Source: Halomonas sp. (GTDB lineage Bacteria > Pseudomonadota > Gammaproteobacteria > Pseudomonadales > Halomonadaceae). From it: a DNA stretch of 64,000 nt. Shown in pieces: positions 36,209 to 46,909 of the stretch. A model generated the notes under the pieces. The model saw only the letters and a list, made by a program, of their open reading frames with translations. It did no database searches and had not been told where the DNA came from. Location: contig NZ_JAFIFK010000068.1 of the NCBI RefSeq assembly GCF_020832045.1, forward strand, positions 1-64,000, in the 5' to 3' direction. Positions within the stretch are counted from its first letter, which is position 1. Every line of letters starts with the position of its first letter. A program made the position numbers and the translations under genes.

Positions 36209-37783
36209 ATGACCGACATTCACGCCCACAAGATCCTCATCCTCGACTTCGGCTCCCAGTACACCCAGCTGATCGCCCGCCGCGTGCGCGAGATCGGCGT
36301 GTACTCCGAAGTGCGCGCCTTCGATATCACCGAGGAAGAGATCCGCGAGTACGCGCCGAACGGCATCATTCTTTCCGGCGGCCCGGAATCCACCGTCGCC
36401 TCCGGCTCGCCCCGCGCGCCCCAGTGCGTATTCGAGATGGGACTGCCGGTGCTGGGCATCTGCTACGGCATGCAGACCATGGCGGTACAGCTCGGCGGCG
36501 CCGTGGAAGGCTCCGACAAGCAGGAGTTCGGCTACGCCCAGGTCAAGGTCGACAGCGACGACGACCTGTTCCGCGACATCAAGGACCACGTGGACCACGA
36601 CGGCAAGGCGCTGCTCGACGTGTGGATGAGCCACGGCGACAAGGTGGCCCGCGCGCCGGAAGCCTTCACCGTGACCGCCTCTACCCCGAGCTGCCCCGTG
36701 GCCGCCATGAGCTGGCCCGAGAAGCGCTTCTACGCCGTGCAGTTCCACCCCGAGGTGACCCACACCCTGCAAGGGCAGCGCATCCTCGAGCACTTCGTGG
36801 TTGGCGTATGTGGCTCGGAAAAACTGTGGACCCCGGCCCGCATCATCGAAGACCAGATCGCCCGCGTGCGCGACCAGGTCGGCGACCGCCACGTGCTGCT
36901 CGGCCTCTCCGGCGGCGTGGACTCCTCGGTAGTGGCGGCCCTGCTGCACAAGGCGATTGGCGACCAGCTTACCTGCGTATTCGTGGATAACGGCCTGCTG
37001 CGCAAGAACGAAGGCGACCAGGTAATGGAAACCTTCGCCCGCCACATGGGCGTGAAGGTGATCCGCGTAGACGCCGAAGCGCTGTTCCTGGGTAAGCTGG
37101 AAGGGGAGAACGACCCGGAAGCCAAGCGCAAGATCATCGGCAACACCTTCATCGACGTGTTCGATGAAGAGGCCAGCAAGATCGAAGGCGTCGACTTCCT
37201 GGCCCAGGGCACCATCTACCCCGACGTGATCGAATCCGCCGCCAGCAAGACCGGCAAGGCCCACGTGATCAAGTCGCACCACAACGTCGGCGGCCTGCCC
37301 GAAACCATGAAGCTGCAGCTGGTCGAACCGCTGCGCGAACTGTTCAAGGACGAAGTGCGCAAGCTCGGCCTGGAACTCGGCCTGCCCTACGACATGGTGT
37401 ACCGCCACCCCTTCCCGGGGCCGGGCCTGGGCGTGCGCATTCTCGGCGAAGTGAAGAAGGAGTACGCCGACATCTTGCGCGAAGCCGACGCCATCTTCAT
37501 CGAGGAACTGCACAACGCCGACTGGTACCACAAGACCAGCCAGGCCTTCGCCGTGTTCCTGCCGGTCAAATCCGTCGGCGTGGTCGGCGACGGCCGCCGC
37601 TACGAATGGGTCATCGCCCTGCGCGCCGTGGAAACCATCGACTTCATGACCGCAAGATGGGCCCACCTGCCGTATGAGCTGCTGGAGAAAGTCTCCAACC
37701 GCATCATCAACGAAATCCGCGGCGTCTCCCGCGTGACCTACGACGTCAGCAGCAAGCCGCCCGCGACGATCGAGTGGGAGTAA
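36209..37783 (+). CDS. guaA: GMP synthase (glutamine-hydrolysing)
   Basis: 524 aa. The class I glutaminase domain has its nucleophile in [11 protein letters not shown] (near residue 86) and the pair HPEVTHT. The ATP pyrophosphatase domain has [16 protein letters not shown] near residue 230. The C-terminal dimerisation domain ends [17 protein letters not shown]. It converts XMP to GMP. Its 3' end is the insertion point of the island that follows, and two partial copies of it lie at about 41.6 and 41.9 kb. Confidence 0.97.
37671..37783 (+). repeat. Left direct repeat (attL, within guaA)
   Basis: The last 113 bp of intact guaA, from TATGAGCTGCTGGAGAAAG to the stop, are repeated with scattered third-position changes at 41890-41994. 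Bases 37784-38030 after it hold no gene I can support and no clear terminator. Confidence 0.7.
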
Positions 37784-38030
37784 TCACATGTTAGGAAGTG
37801 GCTGGCACTAACCAGCGATGATATAAGCCCATGTTTTCAGGGGATGTTTTGTTTTTTGTCTTTGGGGCTGTCTGGCAACTTTTGGCTGTGGGAAACGCCT
37901 CTTGAGCGTGGTATCCAAGGTGGTATTAGTGGAAGTGGGGCTCTTCTGTGGCACCATGAGTACGAAATAGTCTAGGGGAATTTCATCGACTTTGAGAATC
38001 TTCTAGGCTCTTTTGGGAACAAAGGATCCA

Positions 38031-39776
38031 ATGGGTAGGCCAATGGCAACAGAGTGGACGCCGGTAGACGAGACGGAATTGGCTACGCAGCTCCGCACAC
38101 GCGGTTTGGTTCGTACTGTTGCTGATCGGGAGTGTTGGCGTCGGGACGATCGCTATTCTGTGTGGATCGAGACGCTCGCGACCATATTGAACGCTACTGA
38201 CGCGCCCCCGATTGACCACCATATCGAAGAAGCGCTGGCGGAGCTGGCGGGACCGCGCTTCTTCCTCATCCAGAATGTTCTATGCGATCTGATTCCCCAT
38301 CTGAACGTAGATCAGGACGTCCTTCTCGCCTTCATCTCGCGCCTGCTTGATGCAGGTGGTGGCAACGACTTGGCTGCTGGCGCTCCGAGTACCGCTTTTG
38401 GAGAATGGACAAAGAGGGACCCAGCGAGATCTTCCAAGGTTTATGAAGCAGCACGTACCGGTGATAATCTCGCTCTGCGTCAACTATACTCGGTTCTCCT
38501 AATGAACGCTGATGCCGAGGAAGGCCTGATTTTCGCGCAAGCTCATGAGCGGGAGGCGAAGCTTGCAGCCACCTCGGCTTTGGGTGCCATGGAGTTGGGT
38601 GAACGCTACGGTGAGGTACTCGACACACTGCTCCAAGGCGCGTCCAGCAACGATGAGGATATTGCCCTGCGGTCCGTCGAAGCGGGTTACCGCGCTGCTG
38701 CAAAACGGAAAGTATACGCACCAGCCAGTTTCGACGAACAACTCGAACGGATCCTTCAGACGAGGAGTCCCACCGCGATTCACTTGGCGGCGGATCTTCT
38801 GTGGCTTCACCGGGTGGGCCTCTCAGAAAGTGCTATAGATCTGTGTCTTGATGCTGTGGCAGACGTTGATCCAGACAATATCGTCACAATATCGCATATC
38901 GACCATGCCACTTATCAACTCGTAGGCGCCGAGCGTGTTGAAAAAGTGGTTTACCTGCTTAGTGAGTTATTCGATCGTTCACAGGGGCGGATTACGCTGG
39001 ACGCGTTCCAGAGTACGTACCACGCCCTCAAGCAGGCAGGCGCAGACGTGCTTGGTAGTGCGGTTGTGTACTGGCTGCTCAATGGGGATGTATACACTCG
39101 TAAATGCGTGGCGAACGAAGTGTGCAGTGTTGGGAACGATGACCCACCGTTCTCAATCCCCGCGTCGTCCCTGCCAACGGAGCCATCGGATCAGCTTTTT
39201 CTCTGTCGCAAGGCTGTCGGATGGTTCTTTATCGATCCGCTGGCCGCGGTTGTCATACCATTAGCGGTACTTCGCGATGGATCTCCGGATATCGCTAGTG
39301 ACGTCCTCAGTCTGATCTACGACCCCTTGCTCCTGAGCTATGGGGGCAAGCTGAAGGACTACCTTGAGCGCTACGTCGGAGACGGCGGAGCGAACGGCTC
39401 TGGTATTACTGAACTGCTCGCACGAAAGGCCGCATTTAAGGACGCGATGGAGGGTATTGAGCGTTTGGTTGAATTGCACCCCAGCGAAATGCAGCGCGAG
39501 GCAGAGCGTGTTCAGTGGAACGAGAAGATGGAACGGGGCATGGAGCAGGGGAGGCGAAAATCTATATTTGAGGATATCTTCACCAAACAATACATTCTGT
39601 ATGGCCGCTCGTCGCTGACGCCGATTCATACCGGTGAGGGTGCCACGCATCTAACCGAGATCGAGATGAAATCGTTCTCGATCTCGTCCGAGTTGCCTCT
39701 CCTCAATATTGTTGACCCGGTCGGCCTCGACCACATGCTGGTCCACTTCAAGCTTGAGCCGCGAGAACAACGATGA
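38031..39776 (+). CDS. Island protein A: large helical protein of unknown family
   Basis: 581 aa from the ATG at 38031 (AGGA 4 bp upstream; ATG 38043 and TTG 38013 are alternatives). I do not recognise the family. The sequence is predicted mostly alpha-helical with repeat-like blocks (for example AATSALGAMELGERYGEVLD, DIALRSVEAGYRAAAKRK, AIHLAADLLWLHRVGLSESA), suggesting a HEAT/ARM-like solenoid. The C-terminal quarter is charged (MQREAERVQWNEKMERGMEQ). No signal peptide, membrane segment, Walker or nuclease motif was seen. It overlaps gene B as ATGA, so the two are probably made as a pair. Confidence 0.8.
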   Translation: MGRPMATEWTPVDETELATQLRTRGLVRTVADRECWRRDDRYSVWIETLATILNATDAPPIDHHIEEALAELAGPRFFLIQNVLCDLIPHLNVDQDVLLAFISRLLDAGGGNDLAAGAPSTAFGEWTKRDPARSSKVYEAARTGDNLALRQLYSVLLMNADAEEGLIFAQAHEREAKLAATSALGAMELGERYGEVLDTLLQGASSNDEDIALRSVEAGYRAAAKRKVYAPASFDEQLERILQTRSPTAIHLAADLLWLHRVGLSESAIDLCLDAVADVDPDNIVTISHIDHATYQLVGAERVEKVVYLLSELFDRSQGRITLDAFQSTYHALKQAGADVLGSAVVYWLLNGDVYTRKCVANEVCSVGNDDPPFSIPASSLPTEPSDQLFLCRKAVGWFFIDPLAAVVIPLAVLRDGSPDIASDVLSLIYDPLLLSYGGKLKDYLERYVGDGGANGSGITELLARKAAFKDAMEGIERLVELHPSEMQREAERVQWNEKMERGMEQGRRKSIFEDIFTKQYILYGRSSLTPIHTGEGATHLTEIEMKSFSISSELPLLNIVDPVGLDHMLVHFKLEPREQR

Positions 39777-41290
39777 AACTTGTCGTGACACACTATCTGC
39801 GCTCGCTACGCGAACGCGGCGAACTCGACGCTATTTTGCCCGATCTTCTGGCCGAGAGTGGGTTCGAAGTTTTAACCCGTCCCCGTCGTGGCACGCGGCA
39901 AGCTGGTGTCGACGTCGCTGCAGTCGGCCCCAATCCAGATCGCGATGGTGCTCGAAGCCTGTTCCTGTTCACGATCAAGTCTGGAGATTTGACACGGGAG
40001 CATTGGGACACAGGTCAGCAGGCCGTGCGCCCCTCGCTCAACGAGATTCTGGATGATTATATCCCTAACCGTATCCCGCCGCATTTAGCGGATATGTCCA
40101 TAGTCATTTGTATCTGCATGGGTGGCGAGATGCGCGAGGATGTTCGCGCTCAGTGGAGCGGCTTTTGCCGGACGAACGAAAAAGCCAACGTTCACTTCGC
40201 CGAGTGGAACGGAGATCGTCTCGCGGATCTGATCCTCAGCGGCATGTTACGTGCAGAGTTAGTTGAGAGCGAGAACCGAGGAGTGTTTCAGAAGGCGCTA
40301 GCGATGCTTGACCAGCCCGACGTCTCTTATCGGCATTTCCGCCACTTGCTCGATATTATCTTCACTGAGCCGAAGAACCAGACAGAGCGGACACGCCAGC
40401 TACGCAAGGCCTACCTGTGTCTTTGGATACTCTTTGTATGGGCCCGCGACGCCGATAACCTTGAGGCAGCGTATCTAGCATCTGAGCTGGTGCTGCTACG
40501 CAGCTGGCCGCACTGCGATAGTACCCGTCTGCGCAAGGGTTCGACGCGGCAGGAGCGGCTGGCTCATTTCGATCAGGTCTTGCAACTACACATCATCATC
40601 GCCAACCTTCTTCTCGTCGAGAAAATTGGGCCGTTCGCCGATAAGCGATACGCGCTTTCAATGGCCGTAAATTCACGCAACGCGGTTGACATCAACATAG
40701 CGCTGTTCGAGACGCTGGGGAGGTTGTCTCTACACGGACTATGGTTGGATGCCATTAGTGCCACGCAGGACGAGGCGTTTGCGCAGGCAATGAGTGAAGG
40801 GTCGGATCAGGTGCTTAATATAGCGATCGGGATGCTGAACGCGAACCCGGCGCTTGCCGCCCCCGTTCGCGACGATTTCTCGATCGAACTGGCCCTGTTT
40901 ATGCGTCTTGCAGACGTGCGTGGCCGTCTTCGCAATGTCGCCGGCTACATCCGTAGCATCTCCGATCACCTGTGCAACGGACTGACAATGCGGCAGCACT
41001 ATCCGACGCCGATGACAGATTATCGAGACGTTCTCGCCCATCCCAGAGACCGCAGCGATGCATACTTCGAAGAGCATACGCGAGCGGGGATTCTTTACAC
41101 TTTCGTACTCGCTTGGCTTGCGATGATCGGAGATCAGGAACGGGCAGAACGCTTGCGTAGCACGTTGTTAGAGCACGCTCCGCACATGACCCACCAAATC
41201 TGGGTTCCCGACGGACGGATGAAGTTTTCTGGGATGGTGATCGAGATCACGGGTTGTCGGTACCAGGTTTGCCACTCGACGGCTCGCTAG
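39773..41290 (+). CDS. Island protein B: putative PD-(D/E)XK-like nuclease with helical C-terminus
   Basis: 505 aa. The first 75 residues fit a restriction-endonuclease-like core: helix with Glu17/Asp19 (RERGELDAILPDLLAESGFE), Asp47 in QAGVDVAAVG, and a strand LFLFTIKSGD with Lys69. The usual E/Q before x-K is Thr67, so activity is not certain. The remaining 400 residues are helical with no recognised motif. Coupled to gene A by ATGA. The two-gene layout in an island suggests a defence module, but this is inference. The last 12 residues may come from a frameshift; see 41254-41499. Confidence 0.75.
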   Translation: MKLVVTHYLRSLRERGELDAILPDLLAESGFEVLTRPRRGTRQAGVDVAAVGPNPDRDGARSLFLFTIKSGDLTREHWDTGQQAVRPSLNEILDDYIPNRIPPHLADMSIVICICMGGEMREDVRAQWSGFCRTNEKANVHFAEWNGDRLADLILSGMLRAELVESENRGVFQKALAMLDQPDVSYRHFRHLLDIIFTEPKNQTERTRQLRKAYLCLWILFVWARDADNLEAAYLASELVLLRSWPHCDSTRLRKGSTRQERLAHFDQVLQLHIIIANLLLVEKIGPFADKRYALSMAVNSRNAVDINIALFETLGRLSLHGLWLDAISATQDEAFAQAMSEGSDQVLNIAIGMLNANPALAAPVRDDFSIELALFMRLADVRGRLRNVAGYIRSISDHLCNGLTMRQHYPTPMTDYRDVLAHPRDRSDAYFEEHTRAGILYTFVLAWLAMIGDQERAERLRSTLLEHAPHMTHQIWVPDGRMKFSGMVIEITGCRYQVCHSTAR

Positions 41291-41499
41291 AGGCCGTCTT
41301 TGAGCTCCTCAATCGCGTAATGAAGGAGCATCCGCTGCATGAGCGAGTGAGTGCTGTGCGAATTGGCCTGTCCCCTATCCTGCTCGCGGCCTGCCGCCAC
41401 TATCGTATGCCTGTGCCACCGCACGTTTGGCAAGGTCAGGATCGTTCCGCACCGGACAGTCCCACCCCTGACCAAGCCGCACCGGATCCGGGGATGTAG
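41254..41499 (+). pseudogene. Out-of-frame continuation of island gene B, or third small gene
   Basis: A reading frame starting in the last 37 bp of gene B encodes protein-like sequence ([47 protein letters not shown]). No ribosome site or strong start is seen (TTG). The simplest reading is that gene B once continued here and a frameshift near 41250 now ends it early. A separate 81-aa gene is the alternative. Confidence 0.45.
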
Positions 41500-41594: not shown

Positions 41595-41734
41595 CAGCGG
41601 TGTTCCCATCGCTGAAGTTCGTCGGCGACGGCCGGCACTACGAATGGGTCACCGCCCTGCGCGCCGTAGAAACCATCGACTTCATGACCGCAAGGTGGAC
41701 ACACCTGCCGCCAGTGACGGTCGAGTGGGAGTGA
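41595..41734 (+). pseudogene. Degenerate guaA 3' fragment, copy 1
   Basis: Bases 41621-41710 match guaA 37582-37670 closely (encoding [20 protein letters not shown] and [10 protein letters not shown]); then about 100 bp are missing, and VEWE-stop follows. Bases 41595-41620 are weakly similar to the preceding guaA codons. It is an integration scar. Confidence 0.8.
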
Positions 41735-41889
41735 AAATGCATCTTTGTGGGACTATCGATAGTCACCGACAAGGCTGAGGAAAATTATTTTAATAACAAT
41801 AAGCTATGGGTGGTCAGGCTTCATCTGCAAGGCCGCTGTTAGCAACGACCTGTACGCAGCAGTATGTTGTCCATGAGGTAATGATGGCG

Positions 41890-41994
41890 TATGAGCTGCT
41901 GGAAAAAGTCTCCAATCGCATCATCAACGAGATCCGCGGCGTATCGCGCGTGACCTACGACGTCAGTAGCAAGCCCTCCGCGACGATTGAGTAG
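41890..41994 (+). pseudogene. Degenerate guaA 3' fragment, copy 2 (attR)
   Basis: This copy holds exactly the part missing from copy 1 ([34 protein letters not shown]) and ends in a stop 2 codons early. Between the copies (41735-41889) lie AT-rich DNA and a 14-bp palindrome GACTATCGATAGTC at 41751-41764. Two copies suggest two successive insertions. Confidence 0.8.
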
Positions 41995-42281: not shown

Positions 42282-42650
42282 ATGGAAGAAAAAGTTTTTT
42301 TCAATCAAGGGAATGTGAGCGTAAGCAACAGTCGGTTTATTGTCGACGGACAGACCTATGCAATGAGCAACGTGACTTCTGTAAAATCTGGCTTCATACC
42401 TCCAGATAGAGGTGCCGCAAAAATTATTGCCCTTATAGGTTTGGGTTGTTTGTTCGGGAGCGGATGGGTGTTCGTAGCCGGCATAGCAGCGCTAGTTATA
42501 GCTGTTCTGGTCTGGATCGGAAATAAAGAAAAATACTCTGTGATCTTAAATACCTCATCAGGTGAAAATCAGGCATTGGTAAGCGAAGATGAATCCTATA
42601 TAACCAAAATAATTTCCTCATTAAATGAAGCAATAGTTAGTCGCGGCTGA
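42282..42650 (+). CDS. DUF6232-like small membrane protein
   Basis: 122 aa. The start FFNQGNVSVSNSRFIVDGQT, then YAMSNVTSVKSG resembles the DUF6232 family. Two adjacent transmembrane helices follow (AKIIALIGLGCLFGSGWVFV, AGIAALVIAVLVWIG), then a short soluble tail. Function unknown. It is AT-richer than the core genes and lies in the accessory stretch after the guaA island. Confidence 0.75.
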   Translation: MEEKVFFNQGNVSVSNSRFIVDGQTYAMSNVTSVKSGFIPPDRGAAKIIALIGLGCLFGSGWVFVAGIAALVIAVLVWIGNKEKYSVILNTSSGENQALVSEDESYITKIISSLNEAIVSRG

Positions 42651-42791
42651 TGTGTGTTGTGACAGTATCCACCTCACACCTGCTCTAGTGTCTGCCTGTA
42701 ATTAAGCAGTGTTTTCTGCCATTTTCCTGGGCTCCTTCATCGTCGAGGGGCCATTCTGGAGGGCGATCTAGAGCAGTATGCGCTTTATGTT

Positions 42792-42819
42792 GCGGCCCTT
42801 GCCAGGGCCGCTTTCTTTT
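42792..42819 (+). terminator. Strong intrinsic terminator
   Basis: GCGGCCCT-TGCC-AGGGCCGC (8-bp perfect stem) followed by TTTCTTTT. It lies 141 bp after the DUF6232-like gene and just before the convergent membrane-protein gene. Confidence 0.9.
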
Positions 42820-42824
42820 AAAAA

Positions 42825-43586
42825 TTAAGCCACCGTGGCCGAGCGTTGCTGATAGTTGCTTTCCTTGGCTTTATCTCCGCCTGTCTCAGCAATATCAATC
42901 CCCTTTGAGGTTTCTATTGCGTATTCGAGGAGCTCAATTACCTGCTGCGGCCTCTCTCGCTGGCCTAGAGCGATAAAGCCAATAATAGAAAATGCAGCAG
43001 CCAAAATTATCGGTAGCCAGAGCGGAAAACTAGTGCCTTCCTTCATCAATGTAGATGCGGAAATTGAGGCGGCTGCTAGCGCAGGGAAAAGTCCTAGCTT
43101 TCGGAGGTTGCCAGCGAGTAAGGAGACACGATTTTCTGAGATGCCCCAGCTTTGTCGATATTGAATGAGTGCATATTGCAAAGTGCTTGTGTCGAATTTC
43201 TGTAGCTGAGAAAGAAAGGGTAAATCACCGTGCAGGTCATGATTTAGTCGCTGCATGATGGCAGAGTAAGGGTTTTTACGTTGTTTCCACAATATTATTG
43301 CGATGCCGATAATAATGGTAAGCAAGTAGGTGATAGATAGCCCGATATTGATTATATAAAGGAGAAAGGCAGCTTGGTTGGCTTGAGGCGAAGTGTCGAA
43401 TTCTCTTGTATAAAATATCAGTGCAACAAGAACTAGCAAGGATGAAAGATAGGAAATAATTAGGGTGTGTTCCGCTAGCTGAAAATTTTTGGATGGCGAA
43501 AAAGCATTTTCTCTATGCTTTGCCAAGGTCATTTCATTTAGTAGAGAGAAAAGCTCATTTAGTGAAGCTGGTTTGATCATGGCCAA
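42825..43586 (-). CDS. Membrane protein of unknown function in the PAAR operon
   Basis: 253 aa with four predicted transmembrane helices: LIISYLSSLLVLVALIFY, YLLTIIIGIAIILW, a weaker one near FPALAAASISAS, and LPIILAAAFSIIGFIAL. Not recognised. It follows the lipoprotein gene by 38 bp on the same strand, so it is probably the third gene of the PAAR operon. An inner-membrane immunity or accessory protein is possible. Confidence 0.65.
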   Translation of the reverse strand: MAMIKPASLNELFSLLNEMTLAKHRENAFSPSKNFQLAEHTLIISYLSSLLVLVALIFYTREFDTSPQANQAAFLLYIINIGLSITYLLTIIIGIAIILWKQRKNPYSAIMQRLNHDLHGDLPFLSQLQKFDTSTLQYALIQYRQSWGISENRVSLLAGNLRKLGLFPALAAASISASTLMKEGTSFPLWLPIILAAAFSIIGFIALGQRERPQQVIELLEYAIETSKGIDIAETGGDKAKESNYQQRSATVA

Positions 43587-43624
43587 CTGTTTCCCTGGGA
43601 TGTAAAGTATAGCATGAAGTGACT

Positions 43625-44251
43625 TCAGTGTTCTCGCATAAGGACTTGGTCTAAATAACTACCATCTATAAGAGAATTAATGGTCGTCTCGGACATTTGG
43701 ACTGCTAGCTCTCCCTTTTCTGTTTCCTGCTCTAGATATTTTTCAATCAGCTCAGCCGCAGCATGGCTATCACCTAGAATGGCCGCTCCCACCCAGTTGG
43801 CATGGATTTCTCCATCTTCCTCGTGCCGCTCGGCGTAACCTTCCTCGACTGCTGAGTAGCACTCCCTCGCGCTTTCATTACTCTCAACCTCTTCTATCAG
43901 CATGCAACGAAAAAGGGGGAGAGAGTCGTTGCTAGGTGCGATTTCATAAGCTTGATCCACAGTGCTTAGAGCAAGCTCGTAATTTCCTTCATAGATGGCA
44001 ATCTGAGCCCTGTTTATCAGCGCATAATGATTGCTTGGATCTGCCTCAAGCGACTGCGCTATAAGGGCCTTTGCTCTTTCTAGTCTCTCGTTATTTTTTT
44101 CCGCAATGCCGAGAGCTGTTTCCTCGTTGGCTTGTCTCTGAAGCTCGATAGAATCGCTGTCAATATCATTGCCTCTACCTTCCTGGCAGGCAGTGAGCAG
44201 AAGGGTCAGCGCTAGGGCGAAGATTGTTTTTCGCAGCATACTATTACTCAA
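43625..44251 (-). CDS. TPR lipoprotein, candidate immunity protein
   Basis: 208 aa. Lipobox LTLLLTAC places the lipidated cysteine near residue 22. Two TPR-like units (ALIAQSLEADPSNHYALINR, YELALSTVDQAYEIAPSNDS) are followed by a conserved block FRCMLIEEVESNESARECY. It overlaps the PAAR gene by 8 bp. A periplasmic lipoprotein translated directly after a secreted spike protein often protects against a periplasm-acting toxin; that role is inferred. A frameshifted relative lies at 50300-50870. Confidence 0.75.
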   Translation of the reverse strand: MSNSMLRKTIFALALTLLLTACQEGRGNDIDSDSIELQRQANEETALGIAEKNNERLERAKALIAQSLEADPSNHYALINRAQIAIYEGNYELALSTVDQAYEIAPSNDSLPLFRCMLIEEVESNESARECYSAVEEGYAERHEEDGEIHANWVGAAILGDSHAAAELIEKYLEQETEKGELAVQMSETTINSLIDGSYLDQVLMREH

Positions 44252-45065
44252 TTACCTGAAGGGAAAGCATCTTGCTCGTACTGGGTGGGATCGGTGCTGC
44301 TGACCCTGCGCTGGTCTGATATTGGAAAGTACCACGCAGGTGAAGAGAAAGCATCTTGCCGGGCTGTGGCTCGGGCAAAGAAAAGGTGGCGTGGCCTACC
44401 GGTCTATAATTGAATTCATCCGGCCAAGCATTGATTCCGTCATTTTGAAGAACTGCTGATTCCAGTAATTGATCGCCATCCTTGAGTTCGGCACGCATGC
44501 CTAGAATGACCGAACCTCCCCCTGGGATTTGTGCTGCGATTGCTGCACCACGTGCCGATACATGAAGGGTGTTATCTCTGATCGTGACATTGACCCTAAA
44601 GATATATCCGCCATTGCTGCCAACACCTTCGACGAAGAGGTAGGCTGGCTGATTCATGATCACTTCGGTTTCAGAGGCTACATACTCGTATTCAGCTTCA
44701 GGAGAGTTTTCGGCAAACGAAGCCCTGATCGAGTCATCTTGGCGACCGGTCATTCCTAGCGAAGTTGAATGGGCGATCAGGCCTGCTGCCGGCGTGCTCG
44801 CGCTGCTGGGCGAACCGACCTCAGTGCTGCAACCGGTAATGACCTGGCCGCCACATGACGTGGCGCTGCCCTGAATGGCGGCGGGTGAGCCCTCGATGGG
44901 ATACCACGCCACACCGGAGGTAATGCTGGCGCCGCAGGAGCTCTTGTCACCAACCCTGGCGATGGGAATGCCGTCCACCTTGGCCGTGCCTGCACCGGAA
45001 ACGATGCGATGCGGCCCACCCTTGCAGGAGCAAGCCACCTTGTCGCCAACCTTCGCAAGATCCAT
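44244..45065 (-). CDS. PAAR-domain protein with C-terminal extension
   Basis: 273 aa. Residues 1-95 are a PAAR domain (ARVGDKSSCGASITSG, SCKGGPHRIVSGAGTAKVDG, SATSCGGQVITGCSTEVGSP). PAAR proteins form the metal-stabilised tip of the type VI secretion spike and carry effectors. Residues 120-273 look like a beta-rich extension (AYLFVEGVGSNGGYIFRVNV, HATFSLPEPQPGKMLSLHLR) of unknown activity, which may be the effector or an adaptor. No other type VI genes are in the window. First gene of a three-gene operon. Confidence 0.82.
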   Translation of the reverse strand: MDLAKVGDKVACSCKGGPHRIVSGAGTAKVDGIPIARVGDKSSCGASITSGVAWYPIEGSPAAIQGSATSCGGQVITGCSTEVGSPSSASTPAAGLIAHSTSLGMTGRQDDSIRASFAENSPEAEYEYVASETEVIMNQPAYLFVEGVGSNGGYIFRVNVTIRDNTLHVSARGAAIAAQIPGGGSVILGMRAELKDGDQLLESAVLQNDGINAWPDEFNYRPVGHATFSLPEPQPGKMLSLHLRGTFQYQTSAGSAAPIPPSTSKMLSLQVIE

Positions 45066-45335: not shown

Positions 45336-46577
45336 TCAGAAGCGATCGACGCGGAACGGTGCCATATCCACCGCGGGTTCCTCGCCATCCATCATCTGGG
45401 CGAGCAGTTCACCGGTGGCGGGGCCGAGGGTGAAGCCTTGATGGCCGTGTCCGAAGGCGAGCCACATTCCCTGCTTGCCGGGGGCCGGGCCGATCACCGG
45501 TTTCATGTCGGGCATGCAGGGCCGTGCGCCTTTCCAGGGCTGGCCGTCGCGGCGCTTGCCCAGCGGGAACAGTTTGCGTGCCACTTTCTCTGCGGCGGCC
45601 AGCTGCTTGTACTGGGGCGGGGTGTCCAGGTCGGCAAGCTCGGCGCCGGTGGTCAGACGAATTCCGGCGCGCATCGGCTCGAGCAGGAAGCCTTTCTCGG
45701 CGTCCATCACCCAGTGGTTGAGCTTGGCTCCCTCTTCGGCGGAGTAGTGCATGTGGTAGCCGCGCTTCACGAACAGCGGCACTTTCATGCCGAGTCTTGC
45801 CAGCAGCTCACCGGACCAGGGGCCCATGGCCACTACTACTTCCTCTGCCTCCAGGGTTCCCTCGCTGGTCTTCACCTGCCAGCCACCCTCGCTCTGGAGC
45901 ACGTCTTCGACGCTGGCCTGCATCACCTTGCCACCCTGTTCGGCAAAGCTGCGGGCGTAGGCCTGCACCAGGCCGCCCGGGTCCGAGACCATCCAAGGCT
46001 GGGTCCAGTGAATCGCCCCGATCAGCCCCTTGCTCAGGTGCGGCTCCTTGGCGTAGAGCGCTTCGGCGTCCAGCACTTCATACTCAACCCCGAAGCGCTC
46101 GTGGTTCTCCTGAGCCTCTTTCTGGCGCTCCTCGAACTCCTTGCGGGTGCGGTAAAGCTCCAGCCAGCCGCCCTTGCGCACCAGCGCCTCGGCGCCGGCG
46201 GCTTCGATCATCGGCGCGTGGGCATCCTGGCAGCGCACGATCAGCGAGGCCCACTCGCGCACGATGCGCTCGTAGCGCTTACCGCTGGAGTTCAACCAGT
46301 AGTCCAGCAGCGGGCCCGCCGCGTTCAGCATGCCGCTGGGGCGGTAGCGGATATCCACCTGGCGGTTGGGCACCACTCGCAGCAGGGTGCCGATATCACG
46401 GGGGAAGGGGTAGGGGCGTACCGCCTCGCGCTGGATGATGCCGGCATTGCCGAAGGAGGTCTCAAGCCCCGGCTCGCGGCGGTCCACCAGCGTGACGTCA
46501 TGACCGCGACGTACCAGATGCCAGGCCACGGATACGCCGACCATGCCGGCACCAAGAACGATGATATTGCGGGCCAT
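45336..46577 (-). CDS. D-amino-acid dehydrogenase-like FAD oxidoreductase
   Basis: 413 aa from ATG at 46577 (AGGGAGA upstream). The FAD Rossmann motif is IIVLGAGMVGVSVAWHLVRR, followed by VTLVDRREPGLETSFGNAGI. Late motifs: GARPCMPDMKPVIGPAPG and GHGHQGFTLGPATGELLA. This is the DadA/DAO family; the substrate is probably a D-amino acid or related imino compound. It stands alone, with its own terminator. Confidence 0.88.
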   Translation of the reverse strand: MARNIIVLGAGMVGVSVAWHLVRRGHDVTLVDRREPGLETSFGNAGIIQREAVRPYPFPRDIGTLLRVVPNRQVDIRYRPSGMLNAAGPLLDYWLNSSGKRYERIVREWASLIVRCQDAHAPMIEAAGAEALVRKGGWLELYRTRKEFEERQKEAQENHERFGVEYEVLDAEALYAKEPHLSKGLIGAIHWTQPWMVSDPGGLVQAYARSFAEQGGKVMQASVEDVLQSEGGWQVKTSEGTLEAEEVVVAMGPWSGELLARLGMKVPLFVKRGYHMHYSAEEGAKLNHWVMDAEKGFLLEPMRAGIRLTTGAELADLDTPPQYKQLAAAEKVARKLFPLGKRRDGQPWKGARPCMPDMKPVIGPAPGKQGMWLAFGHGHQGFTLGPATGELLAQMMDGEEPAVDMAPFRVDRF

Positions 46578-46909
46578 GAAGGTCTCCCTGCCGATGGATA
46601 TGGAGAGCTCCACCACGGGGCAGAGCCTGTCATGGGCGGAGTGTATCAGCACTTCCCAGAAAGTCGGCTACCTACTGAGAATAAAGGTTAAGATTCTGTG
46701 CCTTTCCCTGGAAACAGAGCATTTGTCCGAGAATTGTCTGGTGTGTGGAGTTATTTGTTTGTTGGGCGCCTGGGGCCTGCTTACGCCATTATCGGCTAAT
46801 GTAGGAATAGTGTAGATGCTGCACCAAGGGCCGCCAGGGTCCATCCAACCACCCCCGACTAGGGTGCTCCAGCCAAGCGGTGGCGTACTCGAAGCGCAGC
46901 GGTTGGGCG
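46578..46909. other. Intergenic region, no gene seen
   Basis: 332 bp between the DadA-like start and the HD gene stop. It must hold the DadA-like promoter and the end of the HD operon. I found no convincing promoter, operator, RNA or conserved small frame in it. Confidence 0.5.

Follow-up and report, generated by a model that had tools for sequence, protein, structure and literature searches.

Olokun, a two-gene system of oloA and oloB, was reportedly first described as an anti-phage system by Millman et al. in 2022. It is treated as a described defence system in PMC10121019 and PMC12629846, the latter placing it almost exclusively in one hotspot of Pseudomonas islands, and its mechanism is still given as unknown in a 2026 review (PMC12926258). 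Two further papers describe guaA as the border of a defence island (PMC11680222) and the GIsul2 integrase as recombining at the guaA end (PMC9376610). A literature search, judged by titles and with subscription papers and preprints outside its scope, returned none on the mechanism of Olokun and no title linking OloA or OloB to phage defence. Here we analyse a stretch of 64,000 nucleotides (nt) from Halomonas sp. (GCF_020832045.1, contig NZ_JAFIFK010000068.1, positions 1-64,000; hereafter the window), in which two long overlapping genes lie behind guaA. Judged by GuaA, which is 98.9% identical to that of C. sarecensis over 187 aligned residues, the host is near Chromohalobacter. An earlier note on this DNA, made from its sequence alone, had proposed the pair as a candidate new defence system. 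The pair does belong by family to a two-gene anti-phage module, which upholds one half of that proposal; it is not new, being almost certainly the known Olokun system by its profile matches. Our overall explanation, to which we assign a probability of about 0.8, is an Olokun system in a hotspot bordered by guaA and a dadA-like gene, in which a HEAT-like OloA would bind a trigger and a FokI/MspJI-like OloB would cut DNA.

Identity of the gene pair

Searches with the PADLOC models identified both proteins as members of Olokun, so that the two families, which the earlier note had not recognised, are in fact catalogued. The OloA model matched residues 24-585 of a 587-residue open reading frame (ORF) at E=6.5e-104, and the OloB model matched residues 1-482 of 505 at E=3.8e-172, covering profile positions 1-477 of 556. 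The order oloA-oloB is that of Olokun, and the two long ORFs (38013 or 38031 to 39776, and 39773 to 41290) share the ATGA overlap described before, 4 bases at 39773-39776. The pair is also GC-poorer (guanine plus cytosine) than its flanks, as had been observed, with 55.5% at 38043-39776 and 57.0% at 39773-41499, where guaA has 64.4% and the dadA-like gene 66.0%. Both genes are under purifying selection, the ratio of nonsynonymous to synonymous substitution rates (dN/dS) being 0.10-0.22 in comparison with seven relatives, and together with the profile E-values this rules out chance for the gene pair. Protection against phage is assigned to the pair by family membership and would be doubtful for the window copy owing to a frameshift, described below.

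Pairing and distribution of oloA and oloB

In 15/15 close relatives, a set of loci from genome contigs (L002-L016) aligned with the window, oloA lies directly ahead of oloB. A second set of 23 stretches comprised the window, two apparent repeats of L005 and L006, and 20 loci absent from the first set; in 22 of these stretches a partner gene for 300 residues or more lies upstream, within -17 to +11 bases of oloB, and 18 have the same 4-base overlap. The coupling seen in the earlier note is thus preserved among homologues, order and pairing being maintained in relatives down to about 26% identity. The PADLOC models matched 20/20 diverse OloB proteins and 19/19 scanned partners. Protein distances of OloA and OloB correlate across 32 loci (rho 0.88; 496 pairs, which are not independent), a comparison from which L041 (no adjacent partner), L042 and L056 (300-residue partner) and L054 (partner running into the contig end) were excluded. 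A lone unpaired oloB occurs at L041 (4808-7740), on a Tolypothrix (cyanobacterial) plasmid behind two ISAs1 transposase pieces.

Occurrence of Olokun is patchy and extends to distant hosts. OloB is present in 7/90 genomes of the genus and in 8/398 genomes sampled across the phylum (in one of the eight through no more than a short match), the genome of the window being included in both counts, and in 34 of 72,556 plasmid records. Relatives 82-92% identical over the best segment occur in several genera, which we take to be Gamma-, Beta- and Alphaproteobacteria, and Rhizobium plasmids (Alphaproteobacteria) carry OloB copies 87% identical to the L002 protein; the pair therefore moves horizontally. 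A megablast search of E. coli, aimed at close relatives and not at distant ones, gave no DNA match. A phage origin of the pair was considered and rejected: 50,697 phage records held no OloB homologue at E 1e-5, and among the 9 pattern matches from a single scan of viral contigs there was no true relative.

Frameshift in the window copy of oloB

In the alignment with L002-L016, the window oloB lacks 4 nt at about position 41214 that are present in 15/15 close relatives. Reading the window sequence as it stands gives an OloB in which some 482 native residues are followed by 23 out-of-frame residues, and about 90 native codons are cut off. Among the residues lost from the frame are Pro548, present in 20/20 OloB proteins, and Arg543 and Arg546, each present in at least 18/20 (the 20 proteins reach down to 24% identity). 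The end of the cassette at 41290, as the earlier note had drawn it, is a result of this frameshift, since all 15 close relatives read on in the frame of the ORF at 41254..41499. The shifted frame at 41206-41463 matches OloB profile positions 480-565, and its dN/dS against the seven relatives is 0.18-0.34, compared with 0.10-0.14 for the remainder of oloB. The shifted tail is still under purifying selection, and the deletion is therefore either recent or an error of sequencing or assembly. Unless it is such an error, loss of the C-terminus probably weakens or abolishes the system in this strain.

Predicted structures of OloB and OloA

We modelled OloB on an intact relative, L002, which shares 92% identity with the window protein across residues 1-482, and OloA on the window sequence, from alignments of 16 sequences each. 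The L002 OloB model has a mean predicted local distance difference test (pLDDT) score of 65 and a predicted template modelling score (pTM) of 0.56, with the final ~95 residues poor. Its residues 1-163 run helix-helix-strand-strand-strand-helix-strand-helix-strand and are followed by a long helical region; the alpha-beta-beta-beta-alpha-beta core of PD-(D/E)XK nucleases is present in this model of moderate quality. In VIA-align, residues 1-163 aligned with the FokI cleavage domain (2fok_B 404-563, Z 10.4, root-mean-square deviation (rmsd) 4.1 over 141 residues), with a second FokI structure (1fok_A, Z 9.8) and with MspJI (4f0p_A, Z 8.7 over 132 residues; 4f0q_D, Z 8.6). VIA-align scores of Z <8, or below about 13 for helical arrangements, may reflect a common arrangement; the OloB domain, however, mixes alpha and beta elements, and its range is the same in the alignments to both restriction enzymes. 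The model hence points to a restriction-like fold at the N-terminus as very probable, and the earlier picture of such a domain followed by a long helical part is borne out by it. A likeness of OloB to 14-3-3 proteins was set aside as a common helical arrangement: it concerned the helical part only, where template modelling (TM) scores relative to the query were near 0.2 and the rmsd was >11.

Asp47 and the TIKSGD motif with Lys69, both pointed out before, are present in the window protein, and Glu14, Asp19, Asp47, Lys69, Gly71 and Arg75 are invariant in 20/20 OloB proteins. Asp47 corresponds to the first acid (the D of PD) and Lys69 to the lysine of (D/E)xK; in the model, Asp47 comes before a predicted core strand and Lys69 closes one.

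The description of the partner as a large, helical, repeat-like protein was confirmed by both profiles and model. The OloA model is a helical solenoid (pLDDT 78, pTM 0.71). Its profile matched designed repeat proteins best, namely an unspecified synthetic fusion (E 1.3e-10), designed armadillo proteins (E 3.8e-10) and alpha-Rep (E 1.2e-8), and natural chains more weakly (adaptin at E ~4e-4, importin at E ~6e-4). Foldseek returned protein phosphatase 2A (PP2A) scaffold and importin-alpha chains at E ~1e-3 or better, with TM-scores of only ~0.2-0.3, and for this reason we carry the label no further than HEAT/armadillo-like. OloA is more divergent than OloB in 494/496 locus pairs, which is weak evidence that would fit a sensing role for OloA. 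At L042 (5096-5998) and L056 (7231-8133), a Klebsiella plasmid among them, a 300-residue OloA stands ahead of OloB; these loci possibly represent a subtype with a split or shortened OloA.

On these predictions, OloA would bind a phage-derived trigger through its HEAT-like repeats and hold OloB, whose helical arm would carry a nuclease domain of the FokI/MspJI kind. OloB might then be released or assembled on DNA and would cut it, stopping the infection. The division of labour within this scheme, with OloA sensing and OloB executing, is tentative, and we put its chances at slightly below even.

A defence hotspot bordered by guaA and a dadA-like gene

The features of the locus are collected in Table 1. 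The earlier note had the pair standing alone in an insertion between guaA and a duplicate of its end. Fragments of the guaA 3' end are indeed found downstream, as two relics and not as one duplicate, and the interval runs on to the dadA-like gene at 45336 with ORFs for DUF6232, unassigned-family, tetratricopeptide repeat (TPR) and PAAR proteins. The segment with these ORFs (42282-45065) has ~50% GC, below that of oloAB.

Table 1 Features of the Olokun locus and its surroundings in the window.
Feature	Position	Strand	Remarks and evidence
guaA, intact, left border of the hotspot	36209..37783	+	NCBIfam NF000848, E=1.2e-249
oloA	38031..39776	+	ATG at 38031 or 38043, TTG at 38013 possible; ~577-587 residues; PADLOC OloA
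oloB as read in the window	39773..41290	+	505 residues, first ~482 native, remainder out of frame; PADLOC OloB
Predicted restriction-endonuclease-like domain of OloB (residues 1-163; Glu14, Asp19, Asp47, Lys69)	39773..40261	+	L002 model compared with FokI/MspJI
Site of the 4-nt deletion in oloB	41214..41215	+	Alignment with L002-L016; placement ambiguous inside a short repeat
ORF with most of the native oloB C-terminal end, in another frame	41254..41499	+	15/15 close relatives continue in its frame
guaA 3'-end relic 1, with internal deletion	41621..41732	+	blastn 92% to 37583-37672, plus short match to gene end
guaA 3'-end relic 2	41885..41992	+	blastn 91% to 37668-37775
Other cargo: DUF6232 protein, ORF without assigned family, TPR protein, PAAR-motif protein	42282-45065
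dadA-like amino-acid dehydrogenase/oxidase gene, right border, convergent	45336..46652	-	Best NCBIfam match NF001933, D-amino acid dehydrogenase, E=1.2e-58, below cut-off

The surroundings were compared in 20 regions around guaA or guaA relics, picked from the best matches (L096-L115). Both borders were present in 15/20 of them, with 4.8 to 17.5 kb in between. Of the 131 listed hotspot ORFs with 140 or more residues, the scan covered 98, every one of them from the 15 loci L096-L110, and did not extend to those of L111-L114 and a few more. Among the PADLOC matches listed, 25 of 343 matching families, the cargo of relatives included LmuA, LmuB, DndC, DndD, PtuA, QatA and type I and type II methyltransferases (restriction-modification). 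Such matches mark the interval from guaA to the dadA-like gene as a hotspot of defence genes in related genomes, in agreement with the earlier idea of a pair at an integration hotspot. PAAR motifs were found in 5/98 hotspot proteins of relatives. As for Olokun itself, guaA lies upstream in 9/15 close relatives, within the compared stretch, and the four more divergent copies of the genus are not at guaA; Olokun is therefore often, and not always, found at this gene.

Relics of the guaA or dadA end lie in or beside the interval in 10/20 loci, and in the window. In 4/20 loci a dadA 3' piece abuts a guaA 3' piece, in the order expected for tandem modules. A Phage_integrase match was found in at most 1/98 scanned hotspot proteins. 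We infer that cargo may be exchanged at the hotspot by homology, without an integrase. The guaA relics of the window (41621-41732), L100 (9862-10067) and L112 (9554-9820) all end at about guaA query position 1467-1469, and in those of the window and L100 the match to guaA picks up again only close to the end of the gene, as though they descended from one decayed ancestor module. Full-length RhuM-family proteins adjoin guaA relics in the Olokun loci L005 (4672-5673) and L007 (15105-16106), and at L016 (5147-6112) the space between guaA and oloA holds a protein that matches RhuM in part and has a Fic domain.

Weighing of the alternatives

Several results weigh against our explanation of OloB and of the window copy. 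The OloB model is of only moderate quality (pLDDT 65, pTM 0.56). Foldseek gave MspJI at E 0.048 and rank 23, below 14-3-3 chains, with none reaching E 0.001, and in VIA-align two designed helical proteins ranked equal to or above FokI through the helical part. Sequence-profile searches of the PDB returned no nuclease, whether the query was the whole OloB alignment or its N-terminal domain by itself, and Pfam searches with the same two queries gave nothing significant, Mrr_cat appearing at E 0.074 in 1/19 N-terminal domains; such sequence searches would neither support nor exclude a restriction fold, and a significant match came solely from comparing folds in VIA-align. The acid of (D/E)xK is absent in 20/20 OloB proteins, position 67 being S in 9, T in 4, V in 3, I in 2 and C in 2; at this position FokI has an acid and MspJI a glutamine. 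With the second acid missing throughout, the earlier suggestion that protein B cuts is therefore not secure: either another acid substitutes in OloB, or the domain may not cut. OloB could thus keep the restriction fold as a catalytically dead module that binds DNA or DNA ends, with phage blocked by binding or by an activity of the helical part, an idea that draws on the missing acid and on the lack of a significant nuclease family for OloB in sequence searches. Against it stand the invariant Asp47, Lys69, Glu14 and Asp19, of which Glu14 or Asp19 could stand in for the lost carboxylate; residues of this kind generally tend to disappear from dead nucleases. We consider a dead module the less probable outcome and give a slight preference to OloB as an active nuclease, whose cleavage of DNA is plausible from model and alignment. 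It is unlikely, in our judgement, that the whole of a more specific proposal holds, in which Glu14 or Asp19 of the first helices replaces the second acid in a rearranged-site nuclease commanded by a HEAT-like sensor and, separately, defence modules accumulate at the hotspot with no need of an integrase, each having guaA and dadA ends as its borders, circularising, recombining by homology and leaving joined dadA'-guaA' relics. A new, unrelated nuclease-plus-scaffold system is hardly credible: neither protein has a significant family in Pfam or NCBIfam, but both match the Olokun models of PADLOC across almost the whole native sequence, and for this reason the pair is not a new system.

The frameshift also argues that the window copy is not fully functional, and the copy may be an inactive remnant of a pair decaying after the oloB deletion. 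This is fairly likely and is compatible with our preferred explanation of Olokun as a trigger-binding OloA and a DNA-cutting OloB. It would account for the 4 nt missing in comparison with 15/15 close relatives and for the conserved Pro548 and Arg543/Arg546 lying out of frame; on the other side, purifying selection is seen on oloA, on codons 1-482 of oloB and on the shifted tail as well, which points to a recent change or a sequence error, and an OloB with 482 native residues may retain some function. With regard to the hotspot, modules might have been inserted by a GIsul2-type integrase at the guaA end, with the integrase later lost here. Such an enzyme does act at this site according to PMC9376610, a tyrosine integrase adjoins guaA in L002, and L004 has a relative of it. 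The window has no relative of the L002 integrase, and the four Phage_integrase matches of its genome are all on other contigs; the match rate of at most 1/98 in scanned hotspot proteins likewise tells against insertion of this kind, and the relics are unequal in length, some abutting dadA 3' ends, neither of which is predicted by a fixed attachment (att) core. We consider integrase-driven insertion less likely than not.

Comparison with known systems

The locus has the same two proteins in the same order as Olokun, both PADLOC models matching over nearly the full native length, and the window copy differs by the frameshift in oloB after about codon 482. In its surroundings it resembles the Stenotrophomonas maltophilia guaA-pgrR defence island (PMC11680222), where guaA is one border of a diverse island, as here; the other border is pgrR in that island and a dadA-like gene in the window, and the word Olokun is absent from the main text of that paper. 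Islands of the GIsul2 type are alike in their insertion behind guaA with guaA-end sequence at the far side (PMC9376610), whereas the window lacks a related integrase and its relics measure ~110 bp against the 19-bp attB given there. With the PD-(D/E)XK cleavage domains of FokI and MspJI, OloB shares the predicted fold of residues 1-163; it differs in having no acid at (D/E)xK (20/20), a large helical C-terminus and a separate HEAT-like partner.

Although the system is a known one, the missing motif acid, the frameshifted copy and the hotspot are each of value. A predicted FokI/MspJI-like domain with fixed invariant residues would make the mechanism of Olokun testable by a few point mutations. 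The frameshifted copy, if real, is a natural truncation to set against intact copies, and the hotspot suggests that defence genes can be swapped at a site framed by two core genes, with integrases playing little part.

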